The notes under the pieces: model-generated
Seen by the model: only the letters and a program-made list of their open reading frames with translations
The model's database searches: none
Told to the model about the DNA's origin: nothing
Source: Candidatus Omnitrophota bacterium
GTDB lineage: Bacteria > Omnitrophota > Gorgyraeia > Zapsychrales > Fredricksoniimonadaceae
Assembly: GCA_016789035.1 (NCBI GenBank)
Contig: JAEUSC010000098.1
Location: 1 to 18,185, forward strand
Direction: 5' to 3'
DNA: 18,185 nucleotides
Made by a program: the position numbers and the translations under genes
Shown: one piece after another, positions 1 to 14,435 of the stretch
Position numbering within the stretch: the stretch's first letter is position 1
Layout: each line of letters begins with the position of its first letter

Positions 1-643
1 CTTTAGCATCGCGACAGCCGAAATACCCGGTGCCGATCTGCCAGATCACATCCCCGCCCTGACGATGATAGTTAGTCAGTCCGCCTTCGCCCGTATTCTG
101 AGCAAAGCCGCCCATTTTGGCCCCTTGATTTAAAGCCATGACGGCATTCTTGCTCAGGGACCCGAAACTCATCGCCCCGATATTAAAAATACTCGCCGAA
201 TACGGCTTGGCCCTGGTGCTACCAATCACAACCCGCAGAGTCTGCGGGTCAACATGCACCGGCATGATTGAATGAGTCACCCATTCGTAGCCGACATCAT
301 AAACATTCTTCTGCGTTCCGAACGGCAGCGTATCAAGCTCGCCTTTGGCACGCTGATAAATCAGTGAGCGATCCAGCCGGTTAAAGGGTGTGCCCGATGT
401 GTTGGATTCCACAAAGTACTGATTGATCTCTGGACGGAAAAATTCAAGCATGTAACGGAAATTGCCGATCACAGGGAAATTGCGACGGATGGCTTGGCGT
501 TTCTGGACCATGTCGACTAATCCGATGACGATCACGGGGCCGAAAAGAACCATCGACCACCAGATCTTCGGATGATCAAATCCGAAATAATAATTACCAA
601 AAACGATCAGAAAGGAAATCAGAAGAAATACCAGACGAGCCAT
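1..643 (-). CDS. FMN-binding glutamate synthase family protein, N-terminal part (runs off left edge)
   Basis: The first 214 residues are present; the C-terminal catalytic bulk lies outside the window. Two hydrophobic segments (about residues 3-22 and 28-45) precede a linker, as in membrane-associated YerD-like relatives of the glutamate synthase large subunit. From about residue 150 the sequence matches the start of the Glu_synthase FMN-barrel domain: FNIGAMSFGSLSKNAV, then GGFAQNTGEGGL, then IGTGYFGCRD at the edge. Family members lack the glutaminase domain of GltB, and their physiological reaction is often unproven, so ammonia- or glutamine-dependent glutamate synthesis is a family inference. 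The ATG at 643 is the first in frame before the hydrophobic segment; no strong ribosome binding site is visible. The gene lies outside the proposed mobile island, whose left end is about 65 bp upstream of its start. Confidence 0.85.
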   Translation of the reverse strand, partial: MARLVFLLISFLIVFGNYYFGFDHPKIWWSMVLFGPVIVIGLVDMVQKRQAIRRNFPVIGNFRYMLEFFRPEINQYFVESNTSGTPFNRLDRSLIYQRAKGELDTLPFGTQKNVYDVGYEWVTHSIMPVHVDPQTLRVVIGSTRAKPYSASIFNIGAMSFGSLSKNAVMALNQGAKMGGFAQNTGEGGLTNYHRQGGDVIWQIGTGYFGCRDAK

Positions 644-706
644 GCCAACATCTTAAACGGCGGAGTGTTTAAATCAAGAACATCTTGGATTTTGTGAATG
701 GAGAGT

Positions 707-728
707 TTTGGTAGTCCAAAACGGATTT
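707..728. other. Candidate left attachment site: imperfect copy of tRNA-Glu 3' end
   Basis: This 22-bp stretch matches 6450-6471 (T-arm 3' side, acceptor strand and CCA of the tRNA-Glu gene) at 19 of 22 positions, in the same orientation. The mismatches are at 715, 718 and 721. It lies between the chromosomal glutamate-synthase-type gene and the leftward cargo operon, which is where the distal end of a tRNA-integrated element is expected. Duplication of a tRNA 3' end is a standard sign of integration. The match is imperfect, so the site may be degraded or an attP that was never identical. Confidence 0.55.
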
Positions 729-784
729 ACTTGGAATCAGATACTAGCAGAGATCGAGAATATATTCAAATTTAAGGACTTAGT

Positions 785-811
785 GCCTATACCAGCTGAA
801 GCGGCATAGGC
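785..811 (-). terminator. Weak stem-loop downstream of the leftward cargo operon
   Basis: GCCTAT at 785-790 pairs with ATAGGC at 806-811, with two further inner pairs past a mismatch. It lies 36 bp beyond the stop codon of the last cargo gene. Read leftward, the stem is followed only by a short mixed A/T stretch, not a clean U-run, so intrinsic termination is possible but unproven. Confidence 0.3.
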
Positions 812-846
812 ATTTGTAGAGTAAATATTCCCCAAAAGGCATGGAA

Positions 847-1446
847 TCACTTTGCGGGCGCTTGGTATTGCCGGGCTTTGGCCTTTAAAAGCTTTTCTCT
901 CTCCTGTTTAAACTGTGTAATTAATGCTTCTCTCATGCCGCTATGAAAAGTTCCCCTTGCGGCAAAATGACCGTTTATATGATCTAGTACGCGCTGAAAA
1001 AGTATGCCTTCCGTACTACTCCATTCCTCCCAATTATAAAAAGAGGGAATGCTCGCAATTTCATTAAAATAAGACGTGAGGTATTGTTCTTTGATTAAAT
1101 TTCCCTGATTCTTAAGCGTAATATTCAAACTTTCTAATTCAAGACTTATACGGCTTAAGTAGTCCTTATCGCTAAATAGGCCTTTCTTTTCTTTAGCATC
1201 CAATTCATCAATCTTTTGAGTTATTTCCCTTGCACGTTGCTCTGATCTAAATTCAGTCATCATCTTATTTCGTTCATCAATCTTCTTCTCAATGTGCTGA
1301 TATGCAATAGAAAGAACAAGAGCAATCAATGCGAGGAGGCCCAGAGTAAGTTTCCAGAACCAATGCAACTTAGTAAGGTCTACGCCCAATGCTATCGTGG
1401 CGAGAATACCTAAATAAAACGATGAAATGTAATAAATCCAGACCAT
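847..1446 (-). CDS. Two-TM coiled-coil membrane protein of unknown function
   Basis: I do not recognise a family for this 199-aa protein. Two hydrophobic segments (about residues 4-22 and 29-49) are separated by a short loop. They are followed by a long charged helical, probably coiled-coil, stretch (about 50-120) and a C-terminal globular part rich in aromatic residues (WEEW near 143). The topology suggests an inner-membrane hairpin with a cytoplasmic C-terminal domain. The ATG at 1446 is preceded by AAGGAA a few bases upstream. It starts 7 bp after the stop of the Mrr-type nuclease gene and is the last gene of the RT-nuclease operon, so co-expression is very likely. In anti-phage systems such small membrane proteins often act as effectors or anchors, but that role is inferred from context only. 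Confidence 0.75.
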   Translation of the reverse strand: MVWIYYISSFYLGILATIALGVDLTKLHWFWKLTLGLLALIALVLSIAYQHIEKKIDERNKMMTEFRSEQRAREITQKIDELDAKEKKGLFSDKDYLSRISLELESLNITLKNQGNLIKEQYLTSYFNEIASIPSFYNWEEWSSTEGILFQRVLDHINGHFAARGTFHSGMREALITQFKQEREKLLKAKARQYQAPAK

Positions 1447-1453
1447 TTATTCC

Positions 1454-2548
1454 TTATAAATAATTTTTTATGTTTTTCAAAGAGTTGCCGTCTATCAACT
1501 TTATTTTACCTTTTTGCGCAAGCGCCTTTGCGGAGGTTGTAAAAGAAGAATTAGTAATAACCCATCCCTCATCGCCACCGTAATAACTCAAAGCGCTTAT
1601 CACTTCTTGTACAGCTTTGTTCGAAACAGGTCCTTGATAACGCTTAGCTTGAATAATTATTGTTTTGCCATCTTTTTTCGCTATTAAGTCTGCCCCTTGA
1701 TCGCCGGAACCGGGAGTTCCTCTAATATCCTCATATCCATTACTTTTTAAAATCTTGACCAAATGTGTTTCAAACTCAACGCCGGAAAGTTCATTCAACT
1801 CTTCAGTTAATGTAGTCTTTTGTTTCCCATGATAATCACGAAACATTTCTTCTAATCTATTCTTAAGATAATGGATCTTTTCTAAATTCTCGGTTTGAAA
1901 GAATAATCGCCCTTTTCCGTATTCTTTCCAATTAATTTCTATCCCTTCCTTAAAGAATAACTTCTTAATACATGCCAGTATTTCATCGGAAAGCTCTTCC
2001 CAGCTTTCATCGCCATATTCGTCAATAAAAGATACTTTTCTTTCTGCAATTTCAAGAAACTTCGATATCAAATCTTGGTTTCTCGTTAGAATTTTCTCTC
2101 CCTGACTGGCGATTAAGTCTTTATGCTCTTTAACTCTCACCTCTTGTTCATTTTGTTCTTTCTCAATCAATTCTTTATGCTTCGTCGAGAATATCAATTT
2201 CAAATGATCTTTCAACTGAACATATTCTTTGGGTAAATCAGATCGCTGTTCCCAATCAGATAACCACTCTCTATATTTTGGAACTAAATCAGAGAGCCCC
2301 TCCCGTTGAGCAATTACGCCTATGCAATCGCGGACTTCATTCTCAATGTAATACGCTCTTTCCTTAGCATAAATCTGGCTTAAATGTTTTTGGATAATTT
2401 CATTGTTCCGCTCAATAATATTCTTACTTTTGTCCACAGAAAGCCTAGCGGAGGTTTCTTTTGTTGCCTTTCCAATCGCCTCAAATAATGCTTGAAGCCC
2501 CCAGAAAATACCGACGAGTATTAAAATGCCTATGGCAAGGTAGCTCAT
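1454..2548 (-). CDS. Membrane-anchored Mrr-type restriction endonuclease domain protein
   Basis: This 364-aa protein has an N-terminal hydrophobic segment (about residues 3-20), a long charged coiled-coil region (about 25-165), a middle region without a recognised family, and a C-terminal Mrr_cat nuclease domain (about 256-364). The PD-(D/E)xK core is clear: Glu258 in GVEFE, Asp287 in GSGDQGADLIA, and Gln300-Ala-Lys302 in IIIQAKRYQ, followed by the conserved AVQEV, VITNSSFT and IKLIDG motifs. Mrr-type domains cut DNA, classically methylated DNA, and occur as effectors in many defence systems. The ATG at 2548 follows an AGGAGAG ribosome binding site. The gene starts 14 bp after the RT stop and ends 7 bp before the next start. 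Fusion of a nuclease to a membrane anchor through a coiled coil is unusual for a classical type IV enzyme. Confidence 0.88.
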   Translation of the reverse strand: MSYLAIGILILVGIFWGLQALFEAIGKATKETSARLSVDKSKNIIERNNEIIQKHLSQIYAKERAYYIENEVRDCIGVIAQREGLSDLVPKYREWLSDWEQRSDLPKEYVQLKDHLKLIFSTKHKELIEKEQNEQEVRVKEHKDLIASQGEKILTRNQDLISKFLEIAERKVSFIDEYGDESWEELSDEILACIKKLFFKEGIEINWKEYGKGRLFFQTENLEKIHYLKNRLEEMFRDYHGKQKTTLTEELNELSGVEFETHLVKILKSNGYEDIRGTPGSGDQGADLIAKKDGKTIIIQAKRYQGPVSNKAVQEVISALSYYGGDEGWVITNSSFTTSAKALAQKGKIKLIDGNSLKNIKNYL

Positions 2549-2562
2549 AAAATTTTACTCTC

Positions 2563-3885
2563 CTACTGAACCAGAGCTGGAGCGCCGACTTTTGTGATGG
2601 CCTGAGGTGTTTGTGTCCATAGACCAGAAAAATTTGCCCTCTGTTCAATGTTCAACTTTTTTCGTTGGAATTCAAGCGCAATAACCATCGGTTGGATGCC
2701 GGAGCTTGCTAGCTGTGCCGGAGAAAGAGCCTGGCGTTTTGCATTCCAATCAATGGAATGGGTAAAGATACCCAGCTTTTCTTTCAGTTCTGCTTCCAAA
2801 GTCTGCATGTACGGTTCAACATCGGTGTGGCAATAGGCTGAAACCCACCCTTCGAGCTGGGCCTTTAATTTGCTAAGTACGCCCAACAGCGTCTTGCTAT
2901 CGCCTTGTTCCGTAATCTCTCTTAGCCGCGCGTTAAAAATTTGTATTTTCTTATCGCTTGGCCATAATCTTCTACCATTAAATCTTGTCCCTAAGAATTC
3001 AAAATGATCTTGGGTTACTTTTAAAATCCTGGTCTTACTTTCCGCATTAAGTTTATGCATAGTTAGGCCTAGACGGCCCTCAATCTCTTCCTGTGCAATA
3101 TTGTGAGCTCTGAGTGCTTCTGCTTTGTCCTTGCACATTACAATGAAATCGTCGGCGTACCGGATCAGCTTAAAACTTTCCTTTAACATTCTTTTATCAA
3201 AATTGTGGAGGTATACGTTAGCAAAAAGAGGGGAAAGTCCACCGCCTTGAGGTATTCCCCCGTCGGGGAAGAGTGAACGATCCGCTTCCGGGATAGCATC
3301 TTTATTTCCAATTTCCTGGTTTAAAGCCGCTGTGATTAACTCATTTATGGATTGATCGGGCAGGGCTGGAAAAACCATCTCGTTAAGCAACTTGTCCCTA
3401 TTCACAGTATCAAAAAATTTCTCTATATCCGCCTCGAATACGACGGGGTTACCCTCGCGGTAATGTATAACCATTTGATTTAAGGCGCTTCTTACCCCCT
3501 GACGGGGAAGATATGCGAAACTGACGCCATTATTCAATTGAAACTCTTCGATTAAAATCGGCTCAATAACCCGCGTAATGGCGCGCTGGACAACGCGATC
3601 GGAAACCTCCGCAACACGAATCCCTCGTTTCTTAGGCTTGCCTTCTTTGGTAAATTGTCCTTTCTTAATAATAGGCACACCTTTGACCGGACGGAAGAGA
3701 TATTTCCCCGCCTTCACCTGTCGTCGGATATTAGCTAAATTATTTTTTAAATTTAATGAAAAATCTTGGATGGAAAAAGAGGAAAGGCCCGATGAAAGCG
3801 GGTTAGACCGGTTAATCTCGGACCAAGCGGCCCGTAAATTGGACGGGGTCTGAACTTGTTGAAGAAGAGAAAGTTTGCGAGGCAT
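2563..3885 (-). CDS. Group-II-like reverse transcriptase, non-maturase context
   Basis: This 440-aa protein carries the ordered RT motifs: an NLRAAW fingers start (16-21), RGIRVAEVSDRVVQRAI (87-103), catalytic Asp153 in EADIEKFFD, IPQGGGLSP (211-219), the catalytic YADD (243-246), EFLGTRF (296-302), and a thumb-like segment ending LKAQLEGWVSAY (340-351). The thumb and PQGxxLSP motif resemble group II intron RTs, but there is no HNH/En domain, and no domain V-like RNA or intron boundary is seen on either side. The retron VTG-type signature and the DGR-type SQ motif are absent. It heads a tight operon with an Mrr-type nuclease and a membrane protein and is preceded by a structured repeat region. 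This suggests an exapted RT of the defence-associated or unknown-group kind; the exact clade cannot be named from the sequence alone. Confidence 0.9.
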   Translation of the reverse strand: MPRKLSLLQQVQTPSNLRAAWSEINRSNPLSSGLSSFSIQDFSLNLKNNLANIRRQVKAGKYLFRPVKGVPIIKKGQFTKEGKPKKRGIRVAEVSDRVVQRAITRVIEPILIEEFQLNNGVSFAYLPRQGVRSALNQMVIHYREGNPVVFEADIEKFFDTVNRDKLLNEMVFPALPDQSINELITAALNQEIGNKDAIPEADRSLFPDGGIPQGGGLSPLFANVYLHNFDKRMLKESFKLIRYADDFIVMCKDKAEALRAHNIAQEEIEGRLGLTMHKLNAESKTRILKVTQDHFEFLGTRFNGRRLWPSDKKIQIFNARLREITEQGDSKTLLGVLSKLKAQLEGWVSAYCHTDVEPYMQTLEAELKEKLGIFTHSIDWNAKRQALSPAQLASSGIQPMVIALEFQRKKLNIEQRANFSGLWTQTPQAITKVGAPALVQ

Positions 3886-3897
3886 CTAATTCTTTTC

Positions 3898-3945
3898 TGT
3901 GTTGAGCTTTCCACCTGGCACGCCAGTGCAACACACAACTCAACA
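3898..3945 (-). other. Stem-loop immediately upstream of the RT start
   Basis: Nested complementary segments lie 13-60 bp upstream of the RT start codon. TGTTGAG (3900-3906) pairs with CTCAACA (3939-3945); alternatively TGTGTTG (3898-3904) pairs with CAACACA (3929-3935). An inner CTGG-CACG-CCAG hairpin forms the tip. It may be translation control, the 3' end of a noncoding RNA, or an RT recognition structure. Confidence 0.45.
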
Positions 3946-4491
3946 ATAAGAAGGGATTGCCGTGATTACGCGGTTCATATCAAGGATTAATACACTTGAA
4001 ACTAGAACACAGGCAATCTTGGCTTTGGCAAATATACTGCCCGATAGCCGATTTAACAAGTAAAACTTAAGGCCGATCATGTTTTTCATGCCGTTCCAAA
4101 TCTTCCAATACAGTTGTTTGATGTTTCTCGACGGGAAAACCATTTTAATACTGAACTGGTTTCCTTCGCGCGCGCCGGTACAAAGTTGCATTTGTACCGA
4201 CCAGTATTGGTTGATTGAGGCACCCACCGCGCCCGACCTTTTTAAATGCCCCTTATCCGCCGAGATGGTTAATTTATAGTGTGTGTTGCTCCCGACGTTA
4301 GGGAAGTCGTGCGTTGCCGTGATTACGCGGTTCATATCAAGGATTAATACACTTGAAACTAGAACACAGGCAATCTTGGCTTTGGCAATTATACTGCCCG
4401 ATAGCCGATTTAACAGGGTTACCGGACGAAGTATGGTAGCATAAACTGCCTTAAAAGCAAATATCTCAAAATTTCCGCCCTTTTCTCCCAT
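3940..4491 (-). CDS. Repeat-containing ORF upstream of the RT, unknown function
   Basis: A 183-codon frame runs from the ATG at 4491 (GAGG lies 9 bases upstream) to TGA at 3940, 54 bp before the RT. A stop-free run of this length is unlikely by chance, so it is either a real gene or a template with coding constraint. No family is recognised. A 34-residue segment (LLNRLSGSI...DMNRVITA) occurs twice, encoded by the 102-bp direct repeats. Each copy holds a hydrophobic stretch, KIACVLVSSVLIL, that could be a membrane helix. The copies are 357 bp apart (119 codons), so the frame is kept and the interval has no stop. It could be a small repeat protein cotranscribed with the RT, a decayed duplicated cassette, or an open frame inside an RT-templating RNA. 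Confidence 0.4.
   Translation of the reverse strand: MGEKGGNFEIFAFKAVYATILRPVTLLNRLSGSIIAKAKIACVLVSSVLILDMNRVITATHDFPNVGSNTHYKLTISADKGHLKRSGAVGASINQYWSVQMQLCTGAREGNQFSIKMVFPSRNIKQLYWKIWNGMKNMIGLKFYLLNRLSGSIFAKAKIACVLVSSVLILDMNRVITAIPSYC
3957..4058. repeat. 102-bp direct repeat, RT-proximal copy
   Basis: It is identical to 4314-4415 except at one position (4032 is A here, T at 4389, + strand). Read leftward it starts TGTTAAATCGGC and ends ATCACGGCAA. The repeat length and the 357-bp spacing are both multiples of three, so the encoding frame is preserved. Confidence 0.97.
4146..4210. other. Extended hairpin inside the inter-repeat segment
   Basis: A perfect 9-bp stem (4176-4184 with 4191-4199, six-base loop GTTGCA) is extended by ACTGGT (4155-4160) pairing with ACCAGT (4200-4205) and by AATACT near 4146 pairing with the adjoining GTATT. 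This long imperfect stem lies between the two 102-bp repeats and upstream of the RT, consistent with a structured RNA, though no family is recognised. Confidence 0.5.
4314..4415. repeat. 102-bp direct repeat, RT-distal copy
   Basis: This is the second copy of the repeat at 3957-4058, in the same orientation, with 101 of 102 positions identical. It ends abruptly on both sides: the flanking bases differ completely from the other copy. That suggests a defined duplicated unit rather than a drifting homology. Confidence 0.97.
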
Positions 4492-4541
4492 TAGCTTTAT
4501 CCTCAATGACTTGCATCACTTAAATAATTTAAAACGCTCAA

Positions 4542-4566
4542 GTCGTTTATAGATCCTGTAAACGAC
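4542..4566. promoter_or_regulatory. 25-bp palindrome, copy 1 of a paired operator-like site
   Basis: GTCGTTT and AAACGAC arms of 7 bp flank an 11-bp centre, and an eighth pair is also complementary. Both this site and the one at 4619-4643 are followed by CCCC on the + strand and preceded by A-rich sequence. It lies upstream of the leftward repeat-ORF/RT cargo, in the region between divergent modules, so an operator or recombinase accessory site is plausible. Confidence 0.45.
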
Positions 4567-4618
4567 CCCCTTGATGGATTGCAAAGCCGTGCGAAAATTA
4601 GAAATATCATTTTCAAAA

Positions 4619-4643
4619 GTCGTTTCCAGAATCTGGAAACGAC
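4619..4643. promoter_or_regulatory. 25-bp perfect palindrome, copy 2 of a paired operator-like site
   Basis: GTCGTTTCCAG pairs perfectly with CTGGAAACGAC around a 3-bp centre. The outer 7-bp arms and overall 25-bp length are the same as at 4542-4566; centres are 77 bp apart. It lies 40 bp upstream of the small rightward gene. Read leftward, the stem is followed by TTTT, so it could also act as a terminator. Confidence 0.5.
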
Positions 4644-4682
4644 CCCATTGTCAGAAATACGGACCTATGTAAAAGTGAGATC

Positions 4683-4865
4683 ATGCTTTCCACGGCAGAG
4701 TGTAAAAAGCATTTAAACAACACCTTCACCGACGAGGAGGTTGAGCAAATCCGGGCCAGCCTCTACAGCCTCGCCGATCTGTTCATCGCCGAATACCAAA
4801 AGTCTAAAAAAGCGCGGGTCCTTCCATCGGGGGCCCCGGATGCGGGTCGGCAAGCGCGCACCTAG
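4683..4865 (+). CDS. Small acidic helical protein upstream of the recombinase
   Basis: This 60-aa protein starts at the ATG at 4683. It has a mostly helical N-terminal two-thirds (FTDEEVEQIRASLYSLADLF, then IAEYQKSKK) and a basic, Pro/Gly-rich tail. No named family is recognised. Small proteins of this style, with a DEE-x3-I-x2-LY-x-LA pattern, are often found just before serine recombinases in uncultivated bacterial lineages, so a role in recombination (directionality or copy control) or as an element-encoded regulator is a guess from position. It lies 128 bp before the recombinase start and 40 bp after a perfect 25-bp palindrome, which may control it. A possible TTGTCA/TAAAAG promoter precedes it, but would leave a very short leader. 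Confidence 0.6.
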   Translation: MLSTAECKKHLNNTFTDEEVEQIRASLYSLADLFIAEYQKSKKARVLPSGAPDAGRQART

Positions 4866-4913
4866 CCAGCGCCTATAAAATATTTTTTTGGCATTTCTTC
4901 TTCCGGTTTTAAG

Positions 4914-4919
4914 TATAAT
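4914..4919 (+). promoter_or_regulatory. Possible -10 box for the recombinase
   Basis: A perfect TATAAT lies 74 bp upstream of the recombinase start. The only -35-like hexamer (TTGGCA, 4888-4893) sits 20 bp away, which is longer than optimal, so the promoter is tentative. Confidence 0.4.
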
Positions 4920-4992
4920 GAGAGCACTCTGCCGACGAGGCACAAAATTCTTGGCACGGAAAACAGGAAATGTATAGAAAGGATAATTTCCT

Positions 4993-6492
4993 ATGAAAGC
5001 GGTTATCTACTGCAGGGTTTCAACAAAAGAGCAAGCCGAGAAAGGATACAGCCTCGAAGGTCAGGAGGACGCGTGCCGGAAGTTTGCCGCACAACAAGGA
5101 TTTGAGGTTGACCGGATTTTCATGGAGCGCGGCGAAAGCGCCAAGACGCAGGACCGGACCGAACTCAAGAATCTTGCCCAATATTGCGCCCTCAACAAGA
5201 AAAAAATTTCCGTCCTCATCATTTGGAAGTATGACCGCCTCGCCCGGAACCTCGCCGATCAAACCGATCTCTTAAAAGTCTTTGGGACTTTGGGAATCCG
5301 GATTCTTTCGGTTACAGAAAATAACGAAGATACCGCCGTCGGCAAGATGATCCGCAACATCATCGGCACGTTCGCGCAATTCGAGAACGATGTTAAGAGC
5401 GAACGGACTACCAACGGCATGAGACAGGCCATCCAGCAGGGCCGCTGGTGCTGGCGCGCGCCGTTTGGATACAAGCAATCCCGCGATTTAAACAATAAAC
5501 CGCTGATTACCCCGGCGGAAGACAGCAAACACGTTATAAAGGCCTTCCAGCTCTTTGAAACCGGCCTCCACAGACAAATCGAGATCGTCCAGAAATTACG
5601 CAAGGCTGGCGTGAAGAAAGCCAACCCTAATTTTATGAACAGGCTGTTGACCAATCCGCTTTACGCCGGGCTCATTGAGTGTAAATGGTTCCCCGGATAC
5701 ATCAACGCGATCCACGAACCCATCATTACTCAAGATACTTTCTTTAAAGCTCAACAGCTTCTAACCGGCAAGAAAGTCTCGCTTATGCCGCGCGGTCGGA
5801 ATCATCCGGATTTCCCGCTACGCCGATTTATGCGTTGCCCTAAGTGCGACGGTAAACTGACCGGCGCGTGGTCCACCGGACGGAACAAAAAGAAATACGC
5901 CCATTATCACTGCTTTACTAAAGGCTGTTCGTATAACGTCCGGAAAGCTGTTTTGGAATCGGCGTTTTTTGAATACCTGAAGTCCTTCCAGCCGCGACCT
6001 GATATTCTAAACCTCTTCGAAAAAATCGTTATTGATGTTTGGAAGGCTCAACAGTCGGAGCAGATCAAGGAAGAACTCCGGGTGGAAAAGGAATTGAAAG
6101 CGCTTCAGGAAAAGCAAAACCGGATTGATAAGCTAATGATTGAGGGGACGTTCAGCGAAGAAGCATATAAGCGCAACTCCGAAGACCTAAAAAACCAAAT
6201 CTTGATGAAGCAGATCGAGCTTAACGAAGTGAAGATTGATCTGAATGATGTGGAGGCGTGCTTGAACTACTGCAAGTTTTTTGTCTCGAACCTCGCCCAG
6301 CTTTGGGCCTCCTCCGAGGTTGACCTAAGACAACGGTTCCAAAGTCTGGTTTTTCCGGACAAAATCTATTATGAAAAAGGGACTTTTCGAACCACAGGAA
6401 CTGCTTTGATTTTCAAGCAGTTAGCGGCAAAAAGTCCCGAAGAATTAAATTTGGTAGCCCCAACCGGATTTGAACCGGTGTTTGATGGCTGA
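4993..6492 (+). CDS. Large serine recombinase (integrase) with C-terminus encoded by the tRNA antisense strand
   Basis: This 499-aa protein has an N-terminal resolvase domain (about 1-150) with catalytic Ser10 in YCRVST, YDRLARN near 79-85 and ERTTNGMRQAI near 138. A Recombinase domain follows (about 155-265, APFGYK...LLTNPLYAGLI). Next come a zinc ribbon (CPKC about 287, paired with cysteines in YHCFTKGC) and a long coiled coil (about 345-415), the usual large-serine-recombinase order. The ATG at 4993 follows AAAGG about 10 bases upstream. The last 12 codons (VAPTGFEPVFDG) and the stop are read from the antisense strand of tRNA-Glu, so the gene crosses the right attachment site. It would catalyse site-specific integration and excision of the island. 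The C-terminus would change on excision. Confidence 0.93.
   Translation: MKAVIYCRVSTKEQAEKGYSLEGQEDACRKFAAQQGFEVDRIFMERGESAKTQDRTELKNLAQYCALNKKKISVLIIWKYDRLARNLADQTDLLKVFGTLGIRILSVTENNEDTAVGKMIRNIIGTFAQFENDVKSERTTNGMRQAIQQGRWCWRAPFGYKQSRDLNNKPLITPAEDSKHVIKAFQLFETGLHRQIEIVQKLRKAGVKKANPNFMNRLLTNPLYAGLIECKWFPGYINAIHEPIITQDTFFKAQQLLTGKKVSLMPRGRNHPDFPLRRFMRCPKCDGKLTGAWSTGRNKKKYAHYHCFTKGCSYNVRKAVLESAFFEYLKSFQPRPDILNLFEKIVIDVWKAQQSEQIKEELRVEKELKALQEKQNRIDKLMIEGTFSEEAYKRNSEDLKNQILMKQIELNEVKIDLNDVEACLNYCKFFVSNLAQLWASSEVDLRQRFQSLVFPDKIYYEKGTFRTTGTALIFKQLAAKSPEELNLVAPTGFEPVFDG
6450..6471. other. Candidate right attachment site in the tRNA-Glu 3' end
   Basis: This segment covers the CCA end, acceptor 3' strand and part of the T arm of tRNA-Glu plus two flanking bases. 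It matches 707-728 at 19 of 22 positions. The recombinase gene reads through it. The intact tRNA lies on the side away from the element, as expected when integration regenerates the tRNA. Confidence 0.55.
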
Positions 6493-6528
6493 GAACCATC
6501 CGTCCTGACCAGGCTAGACGATGGGGCC
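6452..6528 (-). tRNA. tRNA-Glu (anticodon CTC), CCA encoded
   Basis: The full cloverleaf is visible. The acceptor stem GGCCCCA (6528-6522) pairs with TGGGGCT, with a G-U at the first pair. The D arm is GTC...GAC, and the anticodon stem is GATGG/CCATC with loop TTCTCAG. The anticodon CTC is at 6493-6491 (U33 and A37 in place). The T arm is ACCGG-TTCAAAT-CCGGT, then discriminator A and encoded CCA at 6454-6452. It serves as the integration target of the adjacent element. Confidence 0.96.
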
Positions 6529-6591
6529 AGATAGGTATCGGCACGCGGTAAGCCAGTCCTTCTAGATACTGAAACTGACCACTGGGCAATA

Positions 6592-6619
6592 AATATATCA
6601 TACCGACTTTCTCCGTCAA
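6592..6619 (-). promoter_or_regulatory. Promoter for tRNA-Glu
   Basis: Read leftward, TTGACG (6619-6614) and TATATT (6597-6592) are separated by 16 bp and lie about 64 bp upstream of the mature tRNA 5' end. This fits a sigma70-type promoter with a short 5' leader to be trimmed by RNase P. Confidence 0.55.
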
Positions 6620-6638
6620 TAAATATTATCCAGACCTA

Positions 6639-6667
6639 TTGACACCCCATCTGTCGACTTATAAAAT
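6639..6667 (+). promoter_or_regulatory. Sigma70-type promoter for the FIST-kinase-regulator operon
   Basis: Consensus TTGACA (6639-6644) and TAAAAT (6662-6667) are separated by 17 bp and lie about 55 bp upstream of the FIST gene. It is divergent from the tRNA promoter. Confidence 0.65.
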
Positions 6668-6720
6668 GTCAAACGAAAATCTATAAAGTACTCTGAACAA
6701 ATTACGAAAGATCAATTTCC

Positions 6721-7905
6721 GTGGCCACTCACATCGGTATCGGCTTTAGTTCTCTCGCTGACCCAGCCCAAGCCGCCAAAGAGGCAGCAGCACAGGCCAA
6801 AAAACAACTCAATACGCGCATCACACAGCTGGTTGTTGTCTTTACCAGCATGTCCCACGCATCCCCCATTATCCTGGATGCCATATTCGCTATTCTGCAG
6901 CCACAAAAAATTATCGGCTCCTCCAGCGCCGGTCTTATCATGCCGGATAAAATCGCCAGCCAAGGCATTTCAATTCTGGCGATCAGTTCGGATGAAATCC
7001 ATATGAACGTCGCGACCTTAGGCGATATCAAAGACAAAGACATGCGCTTTCTGGGATTTCAGATGGCGCGCGATATCAGCACCAATAAAAATCCCGGCCG
7101 GCAAATCCTGACGGTTTTCGCCGACAGCGGCCTGATCAGCGGCGCCCTATTTTCTCATGGCGCCAAAGAAGTCCTAGGAAGCACAACGCCCATCGTCGGC
7201 GGCATCAGCAGCGACCAATTTCAGTACAAAAAATCGGTTCAGTATTATCAGAGTCAAATGCTCACCAATTCCATGGTGGGACTCTTAATCAGCGGACAGA
7301 TCACCATCTCTGTCGGCAGCCGCCACGGCTGGAAACCGCTAGGCAAACCCCGCACCATCGATAAAGCCCACGGTTCCGTCATCCACACCATCGACGGAGA
7401 ACGGGCCGTAAAACTCTATGAAACCTACTTTGATGAAGACTTTAAAACCCTCAAAGATTCCCGGTTAGGGTCGATGGCTGTCCTTTACCCCATCGGGATT
7501 TACTTGGAAAATGACCGGACGTATTTACTGCGTAACGCCATTGACATTCTCGATGACGGTAGTATTGTATGTCAGGGAGAGGTTCCCGAGGGTGCTGAAA
7601 TGCATTTGATGATCGGAAGCAAAGACTCCTGCAAACAAGCCGCCCTTGATGCCGCGCTTGAAGTCCGCGACGGACTGTCCGGACATCAGGCCAAGCTCAT
7701 CCTGATTATTGAATCCATGACCCGTTATAAAATGCTGGGACGAAGCGCCGTCCAAGAGATCCAGGTCATTAAGGACATTTTAGGATACACCACTCCCATG
7801 ATCGGTATGTATTCTGCGGGCGAAATCGCCCCGCTTCAATCGATTGACCACACAAGAAACACCCAACTGCAAAACGAAAGCATCGTTATTATTGCGATCA
7901 GTTAA
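6721..7905 (+). CDS. FIST domain sensor protein (FIST_N + FIST_C)
   Basis: This 394-aa protein has no signal peptide or membrane segment, so it is cytoplasmic. It begins with the FIST_N pattern (IGIGFSSLADP, then VVVFTSMSH and IIGSSSAGLI; about residues 5-200), where family members have a GC/SSAG-type turn. It continues with FIST_C (about 215-385), with HTIDGERAVKLYETYF and the closing GMYSAGEIAPL. FIST domains are predicted small-ligand sensors, possibly of amino acids, and are found beside or fused to signalling domains. The start is GTG at 6721, chosen because the FIST_N strand begins at once; the ribosome binding site is weak (GAAAG). It is the first gene of a three-gene operon, ending 2 bp before the histidine kinase, and is probably the input module for that kinase. 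Confidence 0.9.
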   Translation: MATHIGIGFSSLADPAQAAKEAAAQAKKQLNTRITQLVVVFTSMSHASPIILDAIFAILQPQKIIGSSSAGLIMPDKIASQGISILAISSDEIHMNVATLGDIKDKDMRFLGFQMARDISTNKNPGRQILTVFADSGLISGALFSHGAKEVLGSTTPIVGGISSDQFQYKKSVQYYQSQMLTNSMVGLLISGQITISVGSRHGWKPLGKPRTIDKAHGSVIHTIDGERAVKLYETYFDEDFKTLKDSRLGSMAVLYPIGIYLENDRTYLLRNAIDILDDGSIVCQGEVPEGAEMHLMIGSKDSCKQAALDAALEVRDGLSGHQAKLILIIESMTRYKMLGRSAVQEIQVIKDILGYTTPMIGMYSAGEIAPLQSIDHTRNTQLQNESIVIIAIS

Positions 7906-7907
7906 CT

Positions 7908-9437
7908 ATGAACATTGATCCTTCCATTGTGCTTGGTGCCATTGTCCTTCTTCTGATCCTTGTTGTTGCCGGGATCTCATTTTATTTATTCAACAGATTA
8001 GAGGAAATCAAACAGCTCAAGGCGGCCAATGAAAAATTCATCCGTTCCTTCAATGATCTTGATGAACAGGCCCGACTGATCGTCAAAACCGATCTGGAAC
8101 TTAATAAAGCCCAAGAAGAACTGGAAAAGCGTCTCCAAGGATTAAACACGCTGCAGAAATTCTCCCGGGAACTCAGCAAAACCCTGGATGCCAAAGAAGT
8201 CTTTCAGAAAATAAACCCGGCGATGCTCACCGACCTGGGATTTTCCAGAGGAATTGTCCTAAGTTATGACGAACACAAAGCCCTGCGTCCCCGTATGAAT
8301 ATCGGATTTCCGGATGACAGACTGGTCAATATCATCTCCCAAATCAATCGCGACGAACATTTCAAGACCGCCCTGAAGGACGGTCATACATTTTCTTCGA
8401 TTAACAGCTCCAAACAGACCAAAGAAAAAATCATCCAACTGTTTGCCACGGAACATTTTATTCTGACGCCGATTCCAGCACAGAACAATATGGATGGAAT
8501 GCTGTTTGTCGGAAACCGTTATACCTCCCCTGCCGTGACCGAAGGCGATGAGGAATTGATTTCCATTTTAGCCAACCAGATCGGACAATCTCTGGAAAAC
8601 ACCCAGTTATTTGAACAGGTCTTTCGCTCCAGCCAGATGCTGGAATCCAAAGTCAAAGAACGAACCAAAGAACTTGAGTCCGCCCTCGAGAAAGTTAAGC
8701 TCATCAGCAAACAGAAATCCGAGTTTATTTCATCGGTCTCTCATGAGCTGCGTACGCCCCTGACATCTATCAAGGGTTATGCCTCCATTCTGATCGCCGG
8801 AAAAATCGGTGAGGTCCCACCCGCTGTTAAAGAGCGGCTTGCCAAAATCAACACGCATTCGGATAATCTGGTCAAGATGATCAATGATCTTTTGGACATT
8901 GCCCGCATTGAGTCCGGCCGCGCAGAAATGAAATATCTTGCCCAATCCATAAAACCGCTCATCGATAACATTGCCGATCTTCTGACGCCCCAACTCAAAG
9001 ATAGAGATCTGAACCTCCAAGTCGATCTGCCGGACAATCTTCCCGATGTGTGCATCGACCGTAACCATGTGGAACGCATTTTTATCAATCTCGTCGGTAA
9101 TGCGCTTAAATTCACGCCGGCCAAGGGCACTATCACCATTGCCGCTCAACCCAATTCCGACACCGACACGATCACCTTTTCGATTGCCGACACCGGAATC
9201 GGCATCCCTGAGGATGATTTGGAAAAACTTTTCGAAGAATTTTACCGAGTCGATAACGAAATCAACCAAAGCGTGAAGGGAACCGGGCTGGGATTATCAT
9301 TGGTTAAACAAATTACGGAGGCCCATGGAGGAAATGTTTGGGTCACCAGTAAAGTAGGAACCGGAACGACATTCTTTTTCACCCTCCCAACATCCATGGA
9401 AGCTGCAACAAAATCTTCCGCCAAGAAAGAAACTTAA
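7908..9437 (+). CDS. Sensor histidine kinase (TM - coiled coil - GAF - HisKA - HATPase_c)
   Basis: This 509-aa kinase has one N-terminal membrane helix (about 9-28) with almost no periplasmic part, a coiled coil (about 30-90) and a GAF-like domain (about 85-235). A second coiled coil leads into HisKA, with phospho-acceptor His279 in SSVSHELRTPL. HATPase_c follows, with the N box around NLVGNALKF (394-402), G1 DTGIGIP (428-434), F box FEEFYR (442-447) and G2 GTGLGLSL (458-465). All catalytic motifs are intact. The lack of an extracellular sensor suggests that the signal is cytoplasmic, through GAF or the FIST protein encoded 2 bp upstream. The response regulator starts 28 bp downstream and is the expected phosphate acceptor. 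The cognate ligand is not deducible. Confidence 0.93.
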   Translation: MNIDPSIVLGAIVLLLILVVAGISFYLFNRLEEIKQLKAANEKFIRSFNDLDEQARLIVKTDLELNKAQEELEKRLQGLNTLQKFSRELSKTLDAKEVFQKINPAMLTDLGFSRGIVLSYDEHKALRPRMNIGFPDDRLVNIISQINRDEHFKTALKDGHTFSSINSSKQTKEKIIQLFATEHFILTPIPAQNNMDGMLFVGNRYTSPAVTEGDEELISILANQIGQSLENTQLFEQVFRSSQMLESKVKERTKELESALEKVKLISKQKSEFISSVSHELRTPLTSIKGYASILIAGKIGEVPPAVKERLAKINTHSDNLVKMINDLLDIARIESGRAEMKYLAQSIKPLIDNIADLLTPQLKDRDLNLQVDLPDNLPDVCIDRNHVERIFINLVGNALKFTPAKGTITIAAQPNSDTDTITFSIADTGIGIPEDDLEKLFEEFYRVDNEINQSVKGTGLGLSLVKQITEAHGGNVWVTSKVGTGTTFFFTLPTSMEAATKSSAKKET

Positions 9438-9465
9438 ATCACATCCGTCGCCGACAGGGGTTTTT

Positions 9466-10395
9466 ATGCGAAGAGAAAAAATATTAACAATTGACGATGA
9501 TTCCGACATTCTAGACGTTCTCGCCATCACTCTTTCTGATACTTATGAGGTGATTGCCGCCAACAACGGCAAAGAAGGACTCGATCTGGTCCGTTCCAAA
9601 AACCCAGACTTGATTATCACCGACTACAACATGCCTGTCATGACCGGACCTGAATTCTGTAAAGAAGTCCGCAAGGACATATTATTTCGTCACATTCCGA
9701 TCATTATGCTCACAGGCAAAGGCGAAGTCAAAGACATGGTCTTTGGCATCGAATCGGGAGCCGATGATTACATCATCAAACCGTTTGAGCCCGACACGCT
9801 TTTGGCGCGCATCCGAATGATCCTGCGGCGGACAATTATGAGCCTGGACGCCAATCCCTTGACCCGCCTTCCCGGAAACACCTCCATCATGGATGAACTT
9901 CAGAGCCGGATTTCACTCGACAAGCCATTTGCCGTCGGGTACGCAGATTTGGACAAATTCAAAATCTATAATGACAAATACGGATTTGAGAAAGGCGACG
10001 AAGTCATCCGGACTACCGCCCGGATCATTGTTGAGAACACAAACCGCGCGGCAGGCAAAGATGCTTTCATCGGACACATCGGCGGGGATGACTTTGTCTT
10101 TATCTGCGATGATGCCATTGCCGATCAATTAAGCCAGACTATCATTGATGAATTTGATAAAACAGCGCCGGAATTCTACAACGAAACCGACCGCGCTGCC
10201 GGCTATATCATCGGCAAGGACCGCCAGGGCAATGAAACCAAGGCCGGACTGATGTCGCTTTCCATAGGGATCGTCTCAAGCGTTACACAAAAAATCACCC
10301 ACGTAGCCCAAGTCGGGGAAATCGGCGCGGAATTAAAAAAATTCGCCAAGAACATTGAGAAAAGCAATTACGTCCGGGACCAGCGAAAGACGTAG
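9466..10395 (+). CDS. Response regulator with REC and variant GGDEF (GGDDF) domains
   Basis: This 309-aa protein has a receiver domain (about 5-122) with acidic residues Asp10-Asp12, phospho-acceptor Asp53 (ITDYNMP), Thr83 and Lys105. A GGDEF-type domain follows (about 130-305). It keeps the metal and substrate residues (YADLDKFKIYNDKYGFEKGDE, 159-179), but the signature reads GHIGGDDF (203-210), with Asp for the usual second Glu, and the RxxD inhibitory site is absent. The entry motif is LTRLPGN rather than LTGLPNR. This is a recurring GGDDF subfamily whose diguanylate cyclase activity is uncertain; it may make or bind a cyclic dinucleotide. It is the last gene of the FIST-kinase operon, preceded by an AGGGG ribosome binding site. 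Confidence 0.92.
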   Translation: MRREKILTIDDDSDILDVLAITLSDTYEVIAANNGKEGLDLVRSKNPDLIITDYNMPVMTGPEFCKEVRKDILFRHIPIIMLTGKGEVKDMVFGIESGADDYIIKPFEPDTLLARIRMILRRTIMSLDANPLTRLPGNTSIMDELQSRISLDKPFAVGYADLDKFKIYNDKYGFEKGDEVIRTTARIIVENTNRAAGKDAFIGHIGGDDFVFICDDAIADQLSQTIIDEFDKTAPEFYNETDRAAGYIIGKDRQGNETKAGLMSLSIGIVSSVTQKITHVAQVGEIGAELKKFAKNIEKSNYVRDQRKT

Positions 10396-10529
10396 TTCAG
10401 ATTCAGAATTACTCCCTACCATCTGTCGCTATATCAATAATCTTCTTTTATTGTTCGAATTGCCGGCAACTTCATCAACAGACATTCATGTCCTTTGATG
10501 GAGCGCGCTGTGATGGCAGGAAAACACCC

Positions 10530-11459
10530 TTAATTGCAAAAGTTTGATGCTGGAGTAAAAGCGCCGTTGGAACAGATGGTCGTCATGGGCCCTCCTGAAC
10601 ATCCGGCAGGACACGGAACACTGACTGTTCGAGTGGGATCGTTAGGGGACAAGGGAAAGGTAATAGTTCCCGGCCCGCAAGGGATAGGAACTGACACGGC
10701 CGCACATTGTCCACACGTAGGATGCGGCCGCGGCTGAATCTTCTGCTCCGGAGTGCAGGAAGAATCACAATTGGCATTTGTAGAACATCTCTCAAACGGC
10801 GTAGGCGAGCAAGATCCCACAGCAACCCCGCAAGCACCGGAGGGCGTCCATGTGGCCGGATCGCAGGAACACGATCCCGAACACAGCCCCGTGTCTTGCT
10901 GGCACCGGGCCTGATATCCCGGACAGGTCGCGGCGCACTTGCTGGACATACACACTTCTAAGCCTGTGCAGATAACGGTTCCGCAAACAGCCCCGCACAA
11001 ATTTTCCGATTCCACCGTGGCGCAGCCGCCGCAATCCACAAAATCACAGTCATTCAAACAGGTTTGTTGTGTGTCCCCCGGCCCGCTGGGATGCCCGGCT
11101 TCTCCCGTTTCATTGCCGTTGCATGTGCCGTCTCCGCAATAAGCAGCTATGGGCGTACTCGAACCGGATCCTGATCCGGTACAAAATGCGCCGCCAAACG
11201 CCGGCTGAGGACACGCGCATTCCCGCACACCGTTTGGCTTGGGAGCACACCAACCGCCGTCAATCGGTAAGGGATTCTTACCCATAATGACTTCTGTTAC
11301 GGTGTTGTAATAACCTTCGGTGTCGGTTTGAGCCCTATTGAGAAGGGAGCGTGAGACGGTAGGTTTTAACGCCAGTAAAATCACAACAGCGACAACTGTT
11401 AAAAGCAACATATATTCGAGAGCTGCTTGACCACGCTGCTGATATTTTTGATTAATCAT
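10530..11459 (-). CDS. Cysteine-rich class III prepilin-like secreted protein
   Basis: This 309-aa protein begins with a class III prepilin signal: basic QQRG, then QAALEYMLLLTVVAVVILL. A prepilin peptidase would cleave after Gly10, leaving the hydrophobic helix as an assembly core. From about residue 70 it holds roughly 32 cysteines in 240 residues, with motifs such as CGDGTCNGNE and CGGCATVE and stretches of Pro/Gly. All of this implies a disulfide-bonded extracellular head far larger than that of a normal Flp pilin. The ATG at 11459 gives the shortest basic leader; the ribosome binding site is weak. It is convergent with the response regulator and lies downstream of a run of secreted beta-helix genes in the same orientation. 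A minor pilin or adhesin tip is likely, but no named family covers the head. Confidence 0.82.
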   Translation of the reverse strand: MINQKYQQRGQAALEYMLLLTVVAVVILLALKPTVSRSLLNRAQTDTEGYYNTVTEVIMGKNPLPIDGGWCAPKPNGVRECACPQPAFGGAFCTGSGSGSSTPIAAYCGDGTCNGNETGEAGHPSGPGDTQQTCLNDCDFVDCGGCATVESENLCGAVCGTVICTGLEVCMSSKCAATCPGYQARCQQDTGLCSGSCSCDPATWTPSGACGVAVGSCSPTPFERCSTNANCDSSCTPEQKIQPRPHPTCGQCAAVSVPIPCGPGTITFPLSPNDPTRTVSVPCPAGCSGGPMTTICSNGAFTPASNFCN

Positions 11460-11504
11460 ATCGGGTATTATTAATTTCTAACGATTCAGTTAAATTACGT
11501 CACA

Positions 11505-11532
11505 AATATAACATGACCCTTTTGCAATGCAA
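11505..11532 (-). promoter_or_regulatory. Possible promoter of the prepilin-like gene
   Basis: Read leftward, TTGCAT (11532-11527) and TATATT (11510-11505) are separated by 16 bp, with a TG just before the -10 box. This is 46 bp upstream of the start codon. Confidence 0.4.
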
Positions 11533-11673
11533 AGCGCAAATTTTCGATTGTATTTAGACACTTTTATACTTTTCGGTCACTAAAAATATCTTACTTGTTA
11601 TATATCAATCCACTTACTAAGCGGTAAATTGCCACTCTTTCTTCTTGCATACTCACAACTCCCAAACACCTTC

Positions 11674-11800
11674 TTAAATGCACGGAAAATTAGGATCACT
11701 GGGAGATCCGCCGCCGCCCAAAGGACCGCCGCCGCTTCCCGGCGGAGCTCCATATTCAAACGCGCCTACATCCGCCGCCGCGCCCACGGGCCGGGCTCCC
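11674..11800 (-). pseudogene. Out-of-frame remnant of the choice-of-anchor Q C-terminus
   Basis: This stretch encodes ARPVGAAADVGAFEYGAPPG, a Gly/Pro linker and the SPSDPNFPCI tail, nearly identical to the ends of the paralogues at 14569 and 16095. The upstream gene enters it in the wrong frame because 56 bp are missing between two copies of GCCGGGCTCCC, leaving one copy at 11790-11800. The stop that would end the intact gene is at 11674-11676. Confidence 0.85.
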
Positions 11801-12973
11801 CGCCTGCAGCATCGCATCCGCCGATGTACTTCCGTTGGGAGTGACCAGATTCGGATTGACCATCGTGTTCCCCCCAGGAACCGAACCTGTGATGTTGTAA
11901 AAAATATTGTCGTGGATGTTGGACCCCGTTTGAACAACCGGTACTGCAGAACTCGGATAGAAGATATTGTTGAAAATCTCAACCCTGTTTCCTCCACACT
12001 CTGACCACCAAGGAGCTATTAACCCAGAATTACTTTTGCCAATAATAGTGTTATTGTAAGCCTTGTTTCCGGGCCCCATCAAAGGGCCGCCGTTAGGACT
12101 ATTGCCACAATTAAAATCTAGAGGATATCCATAAAGGCCATGCCCCGTCTCTTTTTTAGATCCACCATTGAGAATAATATTATTAAAGAATTCATTACCA
12201 GAACACCCATCTGAGAAGACAACCGCTGCAGCTTGTCCGTTTGCTATGAAATTACCGTAAATTTTATTTCTGCTGGATAAACGATATTGCACTTGTATCT
12301 CTCGCTGATTCCAATATGCTCTACTTCCGTTTAGTGAATTGTACCTGTAAGTACCGCTACCAGCACTGATATAAAATCCATGAGATATCGTGCCGCTAAC
12401 TTTGCAATTTTCGACCAGCAGGTTTGAGCCTCCGTAAACACCAACGCCAACGCTAAAATTTTCAATACTACAATTGCGGATCTTTCCATTTGACTGCCAC
12501 GTAACCAATCCTCCTGGCACAACTCCGTTTCCTTTTATATTTTCTCCATTATTTGGCAGCTGGCCAAAACTTCGAGATCTTTCCGTGACCCGAAAATTAA
12601 GACCATCAATGGTGATACTGTCCGCATTGAGCCAAAGCATCCAGTTGTGGGTGGTTCTGCGGACCACTCGATCCCAAACGATGACGGGAACCTCTCCCGA
12701 GTAGTTTTTATATGTAACATTGGCGACAAGAACTCTGTACCGGCCGTTAACGTCAGAATCTGTAAGCATATAGTCCCCGCCCCGAAACCAGACCGTGTCG
12801 CCAGGCCGAAGGATGGCTTGCGCCACCTGCAGACGATCCATTGTCTTCCACGGAGCTGCCAAAGTACCGGGATTTGAATCATTCCCGAACGGAGACATGT
12901 AATACTCCGCCGCAAAGGCGTTCTGCGCCAGGCTTATCATGAGTGCAATCATTAATAGAATCCGCATTTTCAT
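11756..12973 (-). CDS. Secreted right-handed beta-helix protein, frameshifted C-terminus
   Basis: The 405-aa product starts with a signal peptide (1-21, cleavage after AQNAFA). A DUF1565-type entry follows (AEYYMSPFGNDSNPGTLAAPW, about 22-42), then repeated parallel beta-helix coils with NN-x-[IF] ladders (NKIYGNFI, NEFFNNII, VEIFNNIF). Such folds bind or cleave surface polysaccharides; no catalytic triad can be assigned. The choice-of-anchor Q end found in its paralogues is broken: after AMLQAGSP the frame shifts and ends in ARGRGGGCRRV. The true ATG is at 12973, with GGAGG 4 bases upstream; an upstream in-frame extension has no signal-peptide logic. It is the last gene in the array of paralogues, followed by the prepilin-like gene. 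The product may be secreted but lacks its normal C-terminal tail. Confidence 0.87.
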   Translation of the reverse strand: MKMRILLMIALMISLAQNAFAAEYYMSPFGNDSNPGTLAAPWKTMDRLQVAQAILRPGDTVWFRGGDYMLTDSDVNGRYRVLVANVTYKNYSGEVPVIVWDRVVRRTTHNWMLWLNADSITIDGLNFRVTERSRSFGQLPNNGENIKGNGVVPGGLVTWQSNGKIRNCSIENFSVGVGVYGGSNLLVENCKVSGTISHGFYISAGSGTYRYNSLNGSRAYWNQREIQVQYRLSSRNKIYGNFIANGQAAAVVFSDGCSGNEFFNNIILNGGSKKETGHGLYGYPLDFNCGNSPNGGPLMGPGNKAYNNTIIGKSNSGLIAPWWSECGGNRVEIFNNIFYPSSAVPVVQTGSNIHDNIFYNITGSVPGGNTMVNPNLVTPNGSTSADAMLQAGSPARGRGGGCRRV

Positions 12974-13080
12974 AATCCTCCGTTTAAGACGATAGACCAA
13001 AGACCATAGACCAAAGACTGAACCTACAGTGGAATGTCTTTTGTCCTCTTTCTAATCATCACCACTATACTGACCGCGCA

Positions 13081-14373: not shown

Positions 14374-14435
14374 ATGCCTCCGTTTAAGACTAAAGACCAC
14401 AAACCGAAGACCAAAGACTGAATGTACGGTGGAAT

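Follow-up and report, generated by a model that had tools for sequence, protein, structure and literature searches.

A direct-repeat leader upstream of a group of bacterial reverse transcriptases, and a proposal for tandem-repeat cDNA synthesis

We analyzed 18,185 nucleotides (nt) of DNA from a Candidatus Omnitrophota bacterium (GenBank assembly GCA_016789035.1, contig JAEUSC010000098.1, positions 1 to 18,185 of the forward strand). We refer to this whole stretch as the window. (The source assembly has 2.17 Mb in 517 contigs and is 80.71% complete.) The window encodes a reverse transcriptase (RT), which is followed by an Mrr-type nuclease and by a small protein with two transmembrane (TM) segments (Table 1). 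A first-pass annotation, which was made from the DNA letters alone, proposed that these three genes form a new type of defense system. It missed a pair of 102-nt direct repeats just upstream of the RT gene. We will argue that the conserved core of this locus is the RT with its repeat-bearing leader, which is better supported than the gene trio, and that the RT may copy this leader into a complementary DNA (cDNA) of tandem repeats.

Table 1. Features of the window that are discussed in the text (TM, transmembrane; aa, amino acids)
Feature	Positions	Strand	Basis or remark
R1, RT-distal (5') copy of the direct repeat, 102 nt	4314-4415	-	repeat search, 99% identity, spacing 357
U, unique stretch between the repeats, 255 nt	4059-4313	-	R+U unit is 357 nt
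R2, RT-proximal copy of the repeat, 102 nt	3957-4058	-	ends 71 nt before the RT start codon
Rest of the leader up to the RT gene, 71 nt, predicted stem-loop	3886-3956	-	fold -19.2 kcal/mol, z -1.48 (weak)
Reverse transcriptase, 440 aa	2563-3885	-	RVT_1 E 6.1e-24; YADD intact; group II-like fold
Mrr-type nuclease, one N-terminal TM segment, 364 aa; locus-specific partner	1454-2548	-	Mrr_cat E 3.7e-31
Two-TM helical protein, 199 aa; locus-specific partner	847-1446	-	hydrophobic segments; no family match above cutoff
Large serine recombinase, probable carrier of the island	4993-6492	+	Resolvase E 6.9e-37
tRNA-Glu	6452-6528	-	end overlapped by the serine recombinase gene
Two copies of a 34-nt palindrome-like element, GTCGTTT...AAACGAC	4540-4573, 4617-4650		repeat search, 82% identity

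The reverse transcriptase and its repeated leader

Read in the direction of the RT, the leader consists of a first repeat (R1, 102 nt), a unique stretch (U, 255 nt), a second repeat (R2, 102 nt), and 71 nt with a predicted stem, and then the RT begins. R1 and R2 are identical at 101 of 102 positions. (The sole difference, A versus T, sits in a hexamer that resembles a -10 element: TATAAT in R1 and TATATT in R2, the latter within 4031-4059.) R1 is predicted to fold at -26.3 kcal/mol (z = -2.30), and the fold of the whole 540-nt leader has a z of -1.95. No Rfam family matches the leader at a meaningful level. Across the window, the tRNA alone reaches Rfam's gathering level; at E ≤ 5, a search of 640-6800 gives the tRNA and a sub-threshold CRISPR-DR match (CRISPR-DR25, E = 0.27), which lies in the recombinase gene. 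A snoRNA model has a sub-threshold match (E = 0.93) in L003, one of the related loci described below.

The RT is intact. The first-pass annotation had listed its motifs correctly (D153, which lies in EADIEKF from residue 151; QGGGLSP, from residue 213; YADD, from residue 243) and had noted that an endonuclease domain is missing; Pfam finds none. The maturase domain GIIM scores 16.6 bits (E = 0.0076), below its Pfam cutoff of 23. The structural model of the RT (predicted local distance difference test, or pLDDT, of 90.5) is nearest to the GsI-IIC RT and the G2L4 RT, and its top match among PDB structures is the template-switching complex of the GsI-IIC RT. In sequence comparisons, the solved chains that come closest are a group II intron RT/maturase (7uim), the GsI-IIC RT, two group II RT domains, and G2L4.

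To describe the RT's family, we built a profile from 27 relatives. The window's RT scores 592 bits, the other fetched family loci score 347–505 bits, and the remaining fetched RTs score at most 256 bits. In a tree of 86 RTs, all 37 rows from the family lie on one side of a branch of length 0.71, with a support of 100 (SH-aLRT, the Shimodaira–Hasegawa-like approximate likelihood ratio test). These rows are apart from those labeled group II and from those labeled as diversity-generating retroelements (DGRs). (The 15 group II rows comprise 3 that are annotated as ltrA and 12 with labels from us, and they are joined with a support of only 51; 29 rows are unlabeled.) The first-pass annotation had called for a phylogeny with retron, DRT/UG, group II-like, DGR, and abortive infection (Abi) RTs. 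Of these, our tree covers group II-like and DGR rows, and the separation from them holds in a tree that was built without retron, UG, Abi, CRISPR, or G2L4 sequences.

Recurrence of the repeat pair

Six genomes contain a family RT: that of the window, G035 (locus L108), G050 (L109), G388 (Pedobacter KBW06, L003), G389 (Pedobacter Hv1, L004/L139), and G619 (L138), which was drawn from the class of G388. The family searches covered 384, 384, 395, 119, 49, and 87 genomes, with overlapping samples and differing thresholds. (One scan of genome contigs gave three loci, of which L005 lies outside the family.) Metagenomes hold many more family proteins (P0002–P0120 among the matches listed), and 2 of the 120 listed RT relatives have Candidatus Omnitrophota in the name of their source. 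We found no family RT in viral contigs in four scans with RT alignments (for one scan, among the best 80 of 111 matches). Among these matches, identity over more than 100 residues does not exceed 33%, and higher values are confined to short stretches. There was also no family RT among plasmids at E ≤ 1e-30 or among phages at E ≤ 1e-20 (the best was 33% identical).

An open reading frame (ORF) built of such repeats was first seen upstream of the RT in L003, and the other loci were then tested. Scoring required 450 nt or more of sequence upstream of the RT, which five family loci have. (The sequence of L108 starts 158 nt before the RT.) Four of these five have the repeat pair: besides the window (1 mismatch in 102 nt, period 357 nt, R2 ending 71 nt before the RT), these are L003 (no mismatches in 107 nt, period 318, 68 nt before the RT), L138 (2 mismatches in 109 nt, period 348, 55 nt before the RT), and L109 (91 of 91 letters identical, period 424, 57 nt before the RT, as assembled with runs of N). 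Because both R copies of L109 end in N runs, its repeat length and period are uncertain; if N is paired with N, then its repeat counts as 100 nt with one mismatch. Overall, R1 and R2 are 98–100% identical within each of the four loci, and R2 ends 55–71 nt before the RT (counting L109 with its N run).

As a control, we looked for pairs of at least 80 nt, with at most 3 mismatches and a spacing of 150–700 nt, within 1 kb upstream of other RTs. We scored 113 distinct RT loci outside the family, each with 450 nt or more of upstream sequence, and none has such a pair. By our own arithmetic, a simple table of 4/5 versus 0/113 would arise by chance with a probability of about 6.5e-7; the window and L003 were known before the test was framed, and L109 and L138 came after. 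Outside the family, such pairs occur at four places (L018, L029, L058, and L133) in 1.36 Mb of fetched DNA from 140 loci, some of which overlap. By eye, the pair in L133 is a duplicated cold-shock-like gene. We found no further copies of R or U in assemblies G000 (the window's), G050, G388, or G619, with either their own or a related leader as the query. The leader of L003, used as the query for G619, matched just 29 nt, which belong to the U of that genome's own leader. The leader of L109 matched nothing in G035 but the leader before its RT.

L108 and L109 lie on a deep branch of the RT group, while the RTs of the window and of L003 and L138 are in its core. Since the repeat layout is present both on the deep branch (in L109) and in the core, it is probably ancestral in the family and was probably lost in L004.

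The leaders of L003 and L138 are related to each other: R is identical at 65 of 93 positions (z = 4.2), and U has a z of 6.7. Yet within each locus, R1 and R2 match at 107 of 107 (L003) and 107 of 109 positions (L138), so the two copies of R are kept alike in each locus while their sequence drifts. Among the window, L109, and the L003/L138 pair, there is no detectable similarity of leaders (z up to 1.6). The differences between R1 and R2 amount to one A/T in the window and two C/A in L138, with none in L003 or L109. R folds below the mean of shuffled sequences in all four loci (z of -2.30, -2.83, -1.45, and -2.17). We also considered whether R1 and U might encode a small protein in L003 and L138, as one frame is open in both loci over 64 codons and is the best of the six (column-shuffle p = 0.044). 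Because the mismatches are even over the codon positions (31/22/27), we do not claim this protein.

Promoter-like elements precede R1. In L109, TTGACA-17-TAAATT (10/12) ends 10 nt before R1. In L003, the Bacteroidota-type element TATATTTG ends 9 nt before R1. In L138, TATCTTTA, with 5 of the 6 fixed letters, ends 7 nt before R1. On the RT strand, we found no terminator-like site in the 71 nt that separate R2 from the window's RT, and none in positions 1-960 of L109, so the leader is probably transcribed together with the RT.

Proposed copying of the leader and alternative explanations

The architecture is well supported, and for the mechanism we offer a proposal: the RT uses as its template a leader RNA that is redundant at its ends, and the cDNA jumps from R1 to R2, which would give cDNA of tandem R+U units. 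We put the probability of this at roughly 0.4. The conserved unit would be the RT together with a leader RNA, arranged as R1-U-R2-stem-RT. We predict that transcription starts at or just before R1, which would place R at the 5' end of the RNA and again near the start of the RT. The RT would start on the 3' part of the leader, in the stem or in R2, proceed through R2, U, and R1, and run off the 5' end of the RNA. The copy of R at the tip of the cDNA could then pair with R2, either in the same molecule or in a second one, and synthesis would go on. In the three loci without N runs, the repeating units of the product would be 318–357 nt. The identity of R1 and R2 would be kept by this copying, or by recombination with the cDNA. 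The Mrr nuclease and the two-TM protein may be local response genes in the window, with type I restriction genes or nothing obvious in their place elsewhere. The full picture, which would be an undescribed group of RTs with an R-U-R template, retrovirus-like strand transfer via R, a long tandem-repeat cDNA, and coupling to restriction nucleases in some genomes, we hold only tentatively, and we think it rather doubtful that every part of it is correct.

In retroviruses, the RNA is terminally redundant (R-U-R), so that cDNA that has reached the 5' end can transfer to the 3' copy. The likeness is in logic alone, and we claim no kinship. Strand transfer in retroviruses needs RNase H activity. (One family RT, P0052, with 591 amino acids, also carries an RNase H-like domain, PF13456.)

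The proposal draws on two bacterial systems whose logic R1-U-R2 shares, namely the A-B-A' template of the defense-associated RT (DRT) system DRT10 and the jumps of DRT2. DRT2, DRT9, and DRT10 are bacterial immune RTs that turn a small RNA into repeated cDNA (PMC12632851). In DRT10 (UG17), the cDNA stops at the 5' edge of the template, reanneals at A', and continues, which gives tandem repeats (PMC12632851). Like our locus as we propose it to work, DRT10 has an RT, a noncoding RNA with the template between direct repeats, and a small partner protein, SLATT; its product is tandem-repeat cDNA (PMC12632851). But the DRT10 RNA is 137 nt, lies upstream of the SLATT gene, and has a 9-nt repeat in the system shown (PMC12632851), whereas here R is about 100 nt, the units are 318–357 nt, and the leader is upstream of the RT. 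The layout here fits the A-B-A' logic at a much larger scale, and tandem-repeat cDNA would be its predicted product. DRT2 also makes repeated cDNA by template jumps between matching motifs, but these are 3-nt ACA motifs (PMC11100668) instead of repeats of about 100 nt.

We also asked if the RT belongs to any of these known types. PADLOC's RT_UG17 model gives 122 bits for the window's RT and 132–160 bits for the other family members that were scanned in full. An annotated LtrA, as a control, scores 165 bits, so this model does not discriminate, and we did not assign the RT to UG17/DRT10 (the tree contains no UG17 sequence). Membership in DRT2 was rejected as well: the Drt2 model gives 58.5 bits against a cutoff of 390, and the endless reading frame discussed below is not conserved. 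Nor does the RT pass as a retron RT by the St85 model, with 47 bits against a cutoff of 235; for an msr-msd RNA with inverted a1/a2 repeats, the search was confined to Rfam. SLATT proteins have two TM segments. The 199-amino-acid protein of the window has no match to a SLATT family at E ≤ 1, although it may be remotely related, and it is not a conserved partner of the RT. As 82% of UG17 RTs occur with SLATT_5 (PMC8934634), the combination of an RT and a small membrane protein is not new. In the open PMC literature, we recognized no description of long direct repeats before a bacterial RT, and none of this RT group with restriction genes; most subscription papers were outside that search.

Several findings weigh against our proposal. 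The 3' stem has z scores of just -1.48, -1.01, and -1.13 (and -0.64 for the corresponding stretch of L108). The window's own promoter upstream of R1 is weak (7/12) and ends 17 nt short of it, and a better promoter-like site (9/12) lies in R2 (4059-4031). (The region of the R2 site is not enriched in promoter-like sites, with 9 versus 8.3 in shuffled sequences.) L004 is a member of the family and has no repeat pair. The recurrence is based on five scoreable loci only, and one of these, L109, has N runs in both copies of R. Repeats can also be misplaced in genome bins that were assembled from short reads. The near-identity of R1 and R2 could, by itself, also arise by ordinary recombination. And a role of the RT locus in defense against phage, which we consider plausible, would be deduced from the neighboring genes.

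If R1 and R2 are not copied by the RT, they might be a duplicated regulatory RNA element, or recombination between them might delete U and so switch the RT operon on or off. Direct repeats of around 100 nt can recombine, L004 has a family RT but no repeats, and the identity within each locus requires no more than recent exchange. Against this stand the presence of the pair at the same position and with a similar length in loci whose leaders have no detectable similarity, the lack of such pairs at the 113 other RT loci, and the fact that R1 begins at a predicted transcript start in two or three of the four loci. We consider this explanation unlikely.

Another option is that the RT copies as in a DGR but without mutation, so that cDNA from one R is written into the other and keeps both identical. 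Two near-copies of about 100 nt close to an RT do resemble the template and variable repeats of DGRs, and the concerted evolution of R1 and R2 would fit. But the differences, 0–2 per pair, show no adenine-directed variation. Five viral loci with pairs that we labeled as DGR-like differ at 13–22 positions, and their RTs form a separate group. Nothing indicates that a target gene ends in R1, and the frame that L003 and L138 have in common has no coding signal. We view DGR-like copying as improbable.

The first-pass annotation held that the RT, Mrr, and two-TM genes are a dedicated antiphage system, in which the cDNA is sensed or guarded and the nuclease and the TM protein are the effectors. Its reading of the genes themselves was accurate. 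The three ORFs are on the same strand with operon-like gaps of 14 nt (RT to Mrr) and 7 nt (Mrr to the two-TM gene); the Mrr protein has the predicted D-QAK core (GADLI from residue 285, including D287, and IIIQAK from residue 297) and a single N-terminal hydrophobic segment; and both hydrophobic segments of the 199-amino-acid protein lie within its first 53 or so residues. Also, the family RT precedes restriction genes in L108 and L109. In L108, a gene similar to type I R subunits overlaps the end of the RT by 4 nt and is followed by HsdM- and HsdS-like genes. In L109, an HsdM-like gene begins 64 nt after the RT, followed by HsdS-like, DUF4145, and HsdR-like genes. (These RT-restriction clusters, L108 159-6540 and L109 943-8888, are from genomes of different families.) In all, restriction genes follow the RT in each of the three loci from the window's phylum and in none of the three on the Bacteroidota side. 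There, the RT is followed by a protein kinase-like gene after 212 nt in L003 and by a thioredoxin-like gene (a weak match) after 206 nt in L138, while in L004 the gene beside the RT is converging and a different Mrr-like gene, also converging, is about 2.5 kb away.

The trio, on the other hand, is not conserved in the loci that could be compared, an outcome that the first-pass annotation had named as one that would refute its system. None of the other five family RT loci (L003, L004, L108, L109, and L138) has a TM-Mrr gene next to the RT, nor does the DNA fetched for these loci contain a match to the two-TM gene. Both partner families also occur without the RT. A search of 384 genomes from the phylum found the two-TM family in five, namely the window's, three with full-length matches (L104–L106), and one with a weak partial match; there is no match to the RT or Mrr within the 13–18 kb around the three full-length genes. 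Similarly, for both of the Mrr relatives that come from viral contigs, the fetched DNA contains no RT. It is quite unlikely, then, that these three genes are a dedicated system.

A further alternative is gene synthesis as in DRT2, with the concatenated R-U cDNA forming an endless reading frame (Neo) whose product is the effector. The unit lengths of 357, 318, and 348 nt are multiples of 3, and there is one stop-free frame in the window's unit (on the RT strand) and one in that of L003 (on the other strand). L138 has no stop-free frame, however, so a Neo-like product is not generally supported. The open strand differs between loci, the period of L109 as assembled (with its N runs) is not a multiple of 3, and a unit has a 2–4% chance of having a stop-free frame. 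We regard this as very unlikely.

Finally, that the RT is from a decayed group II intron with unrecognizable RNA is hardly credible: the best NCBIfam profile is TIGR04416 (group II RT/maturase) and the fold is group II-like, but the 214.5 bits are below the cutoff of 300, there is no intron RNA in the window, L108, or L109 or around the RT in L138 and L003, and the RTs form their own group, with catalytic residues that are invariant in 27 and 19 aligned members. This agrees with the first-pass view that the RT is not an intron RT, by the tests that were run. Group II RTs and G2L4 remain the closest in fold and profile; besides these differences and the sub-cutoff maturase domain, the motif here is YADD, while G2L4 is described with YIDD (PMC4244168).

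If our proposal that the RT copies R-U-R is correct, then this would be, as far as we know, the first bacterial case of R-type strand transfer. It would provide a testable link between the layout of a template and the length of its product, and it would bear on why an RT heads restriction operons in some genomes. Since two identical copies of about 100 nt before an RT are easy to search for, the layout can be used to find more members.

Neighboring genes and the island

The two-TM protein has no match above cutoff in Pfam or NCBIfam and none in PADLOC. Its model is all helix (pLDDT 76.8, predicted template modeling score 0.42), and a fold search gave no PDB match at E ≤ 0.001. It has 8 relatives at E ≤ 1, with none in viral contigs or plasmids. 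In contrast, Mrr relatives form a large family (722 proteins at E ≤ 0.001). We noticed by eye that some relatives share the same value for their longest contig: RT P0086 and two-TM P0125 (6074), and RT P0060 and Mrr P0209 (2531). These values hint at shared contigs; we roughly estimate that chance would produce about one match of this kind for the RT and Mrr lists. In L106 (8911-15192), a two-TM relative is beside a TIR domain-like protein, a UvrD-like helicase, and an OLD-like ATPase, as judged by eye. Also by eye, P0129 and the two-TM relative at L106 8911-9510 are like the others in the soluble part but not in the membrane part, which suggests that their TM segments were swapped.

The first-pass annotation placed the genes on a recombinase-borne island. 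An island carried by the recombinase at tRNA-Glu is likely: the recombinase lies at the tRNA, and another genome (locus L107) has a related recombinase (phmmer E = 4e-189), with DNA similarity that runs through the same tRNA-Glu-side end. As a mark of the left end, we looked for a copy of a piece of the tRNA of at least 10 nt in 601-900 of the window and found none. In L107 (4407-9213), the recombinase adjoins a different set of membrane proteins, and this may be another island that has the same carrier but different cargo. The pair of 34-nt palindrome-like elements lies between the recombinase and the leader and is possibly a regulator or an attachment site.

Two other observations concern genes farther away. 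L003 encodes a second, unrelated-looking RT of 518 amino acids (744-2300, minus strand), about 5.7 kb from the family RT; it matches the window's RT weakly, with E = 8.8e-8. And in the window, 11756-18089 (minus strand) encodes a tandem run of secreted-looking proteins that appear beta-helix-like by eye. Several of these are nearly identical at their N- and C-terminal residues and differ in the middle, as if their centers had been exchanged.

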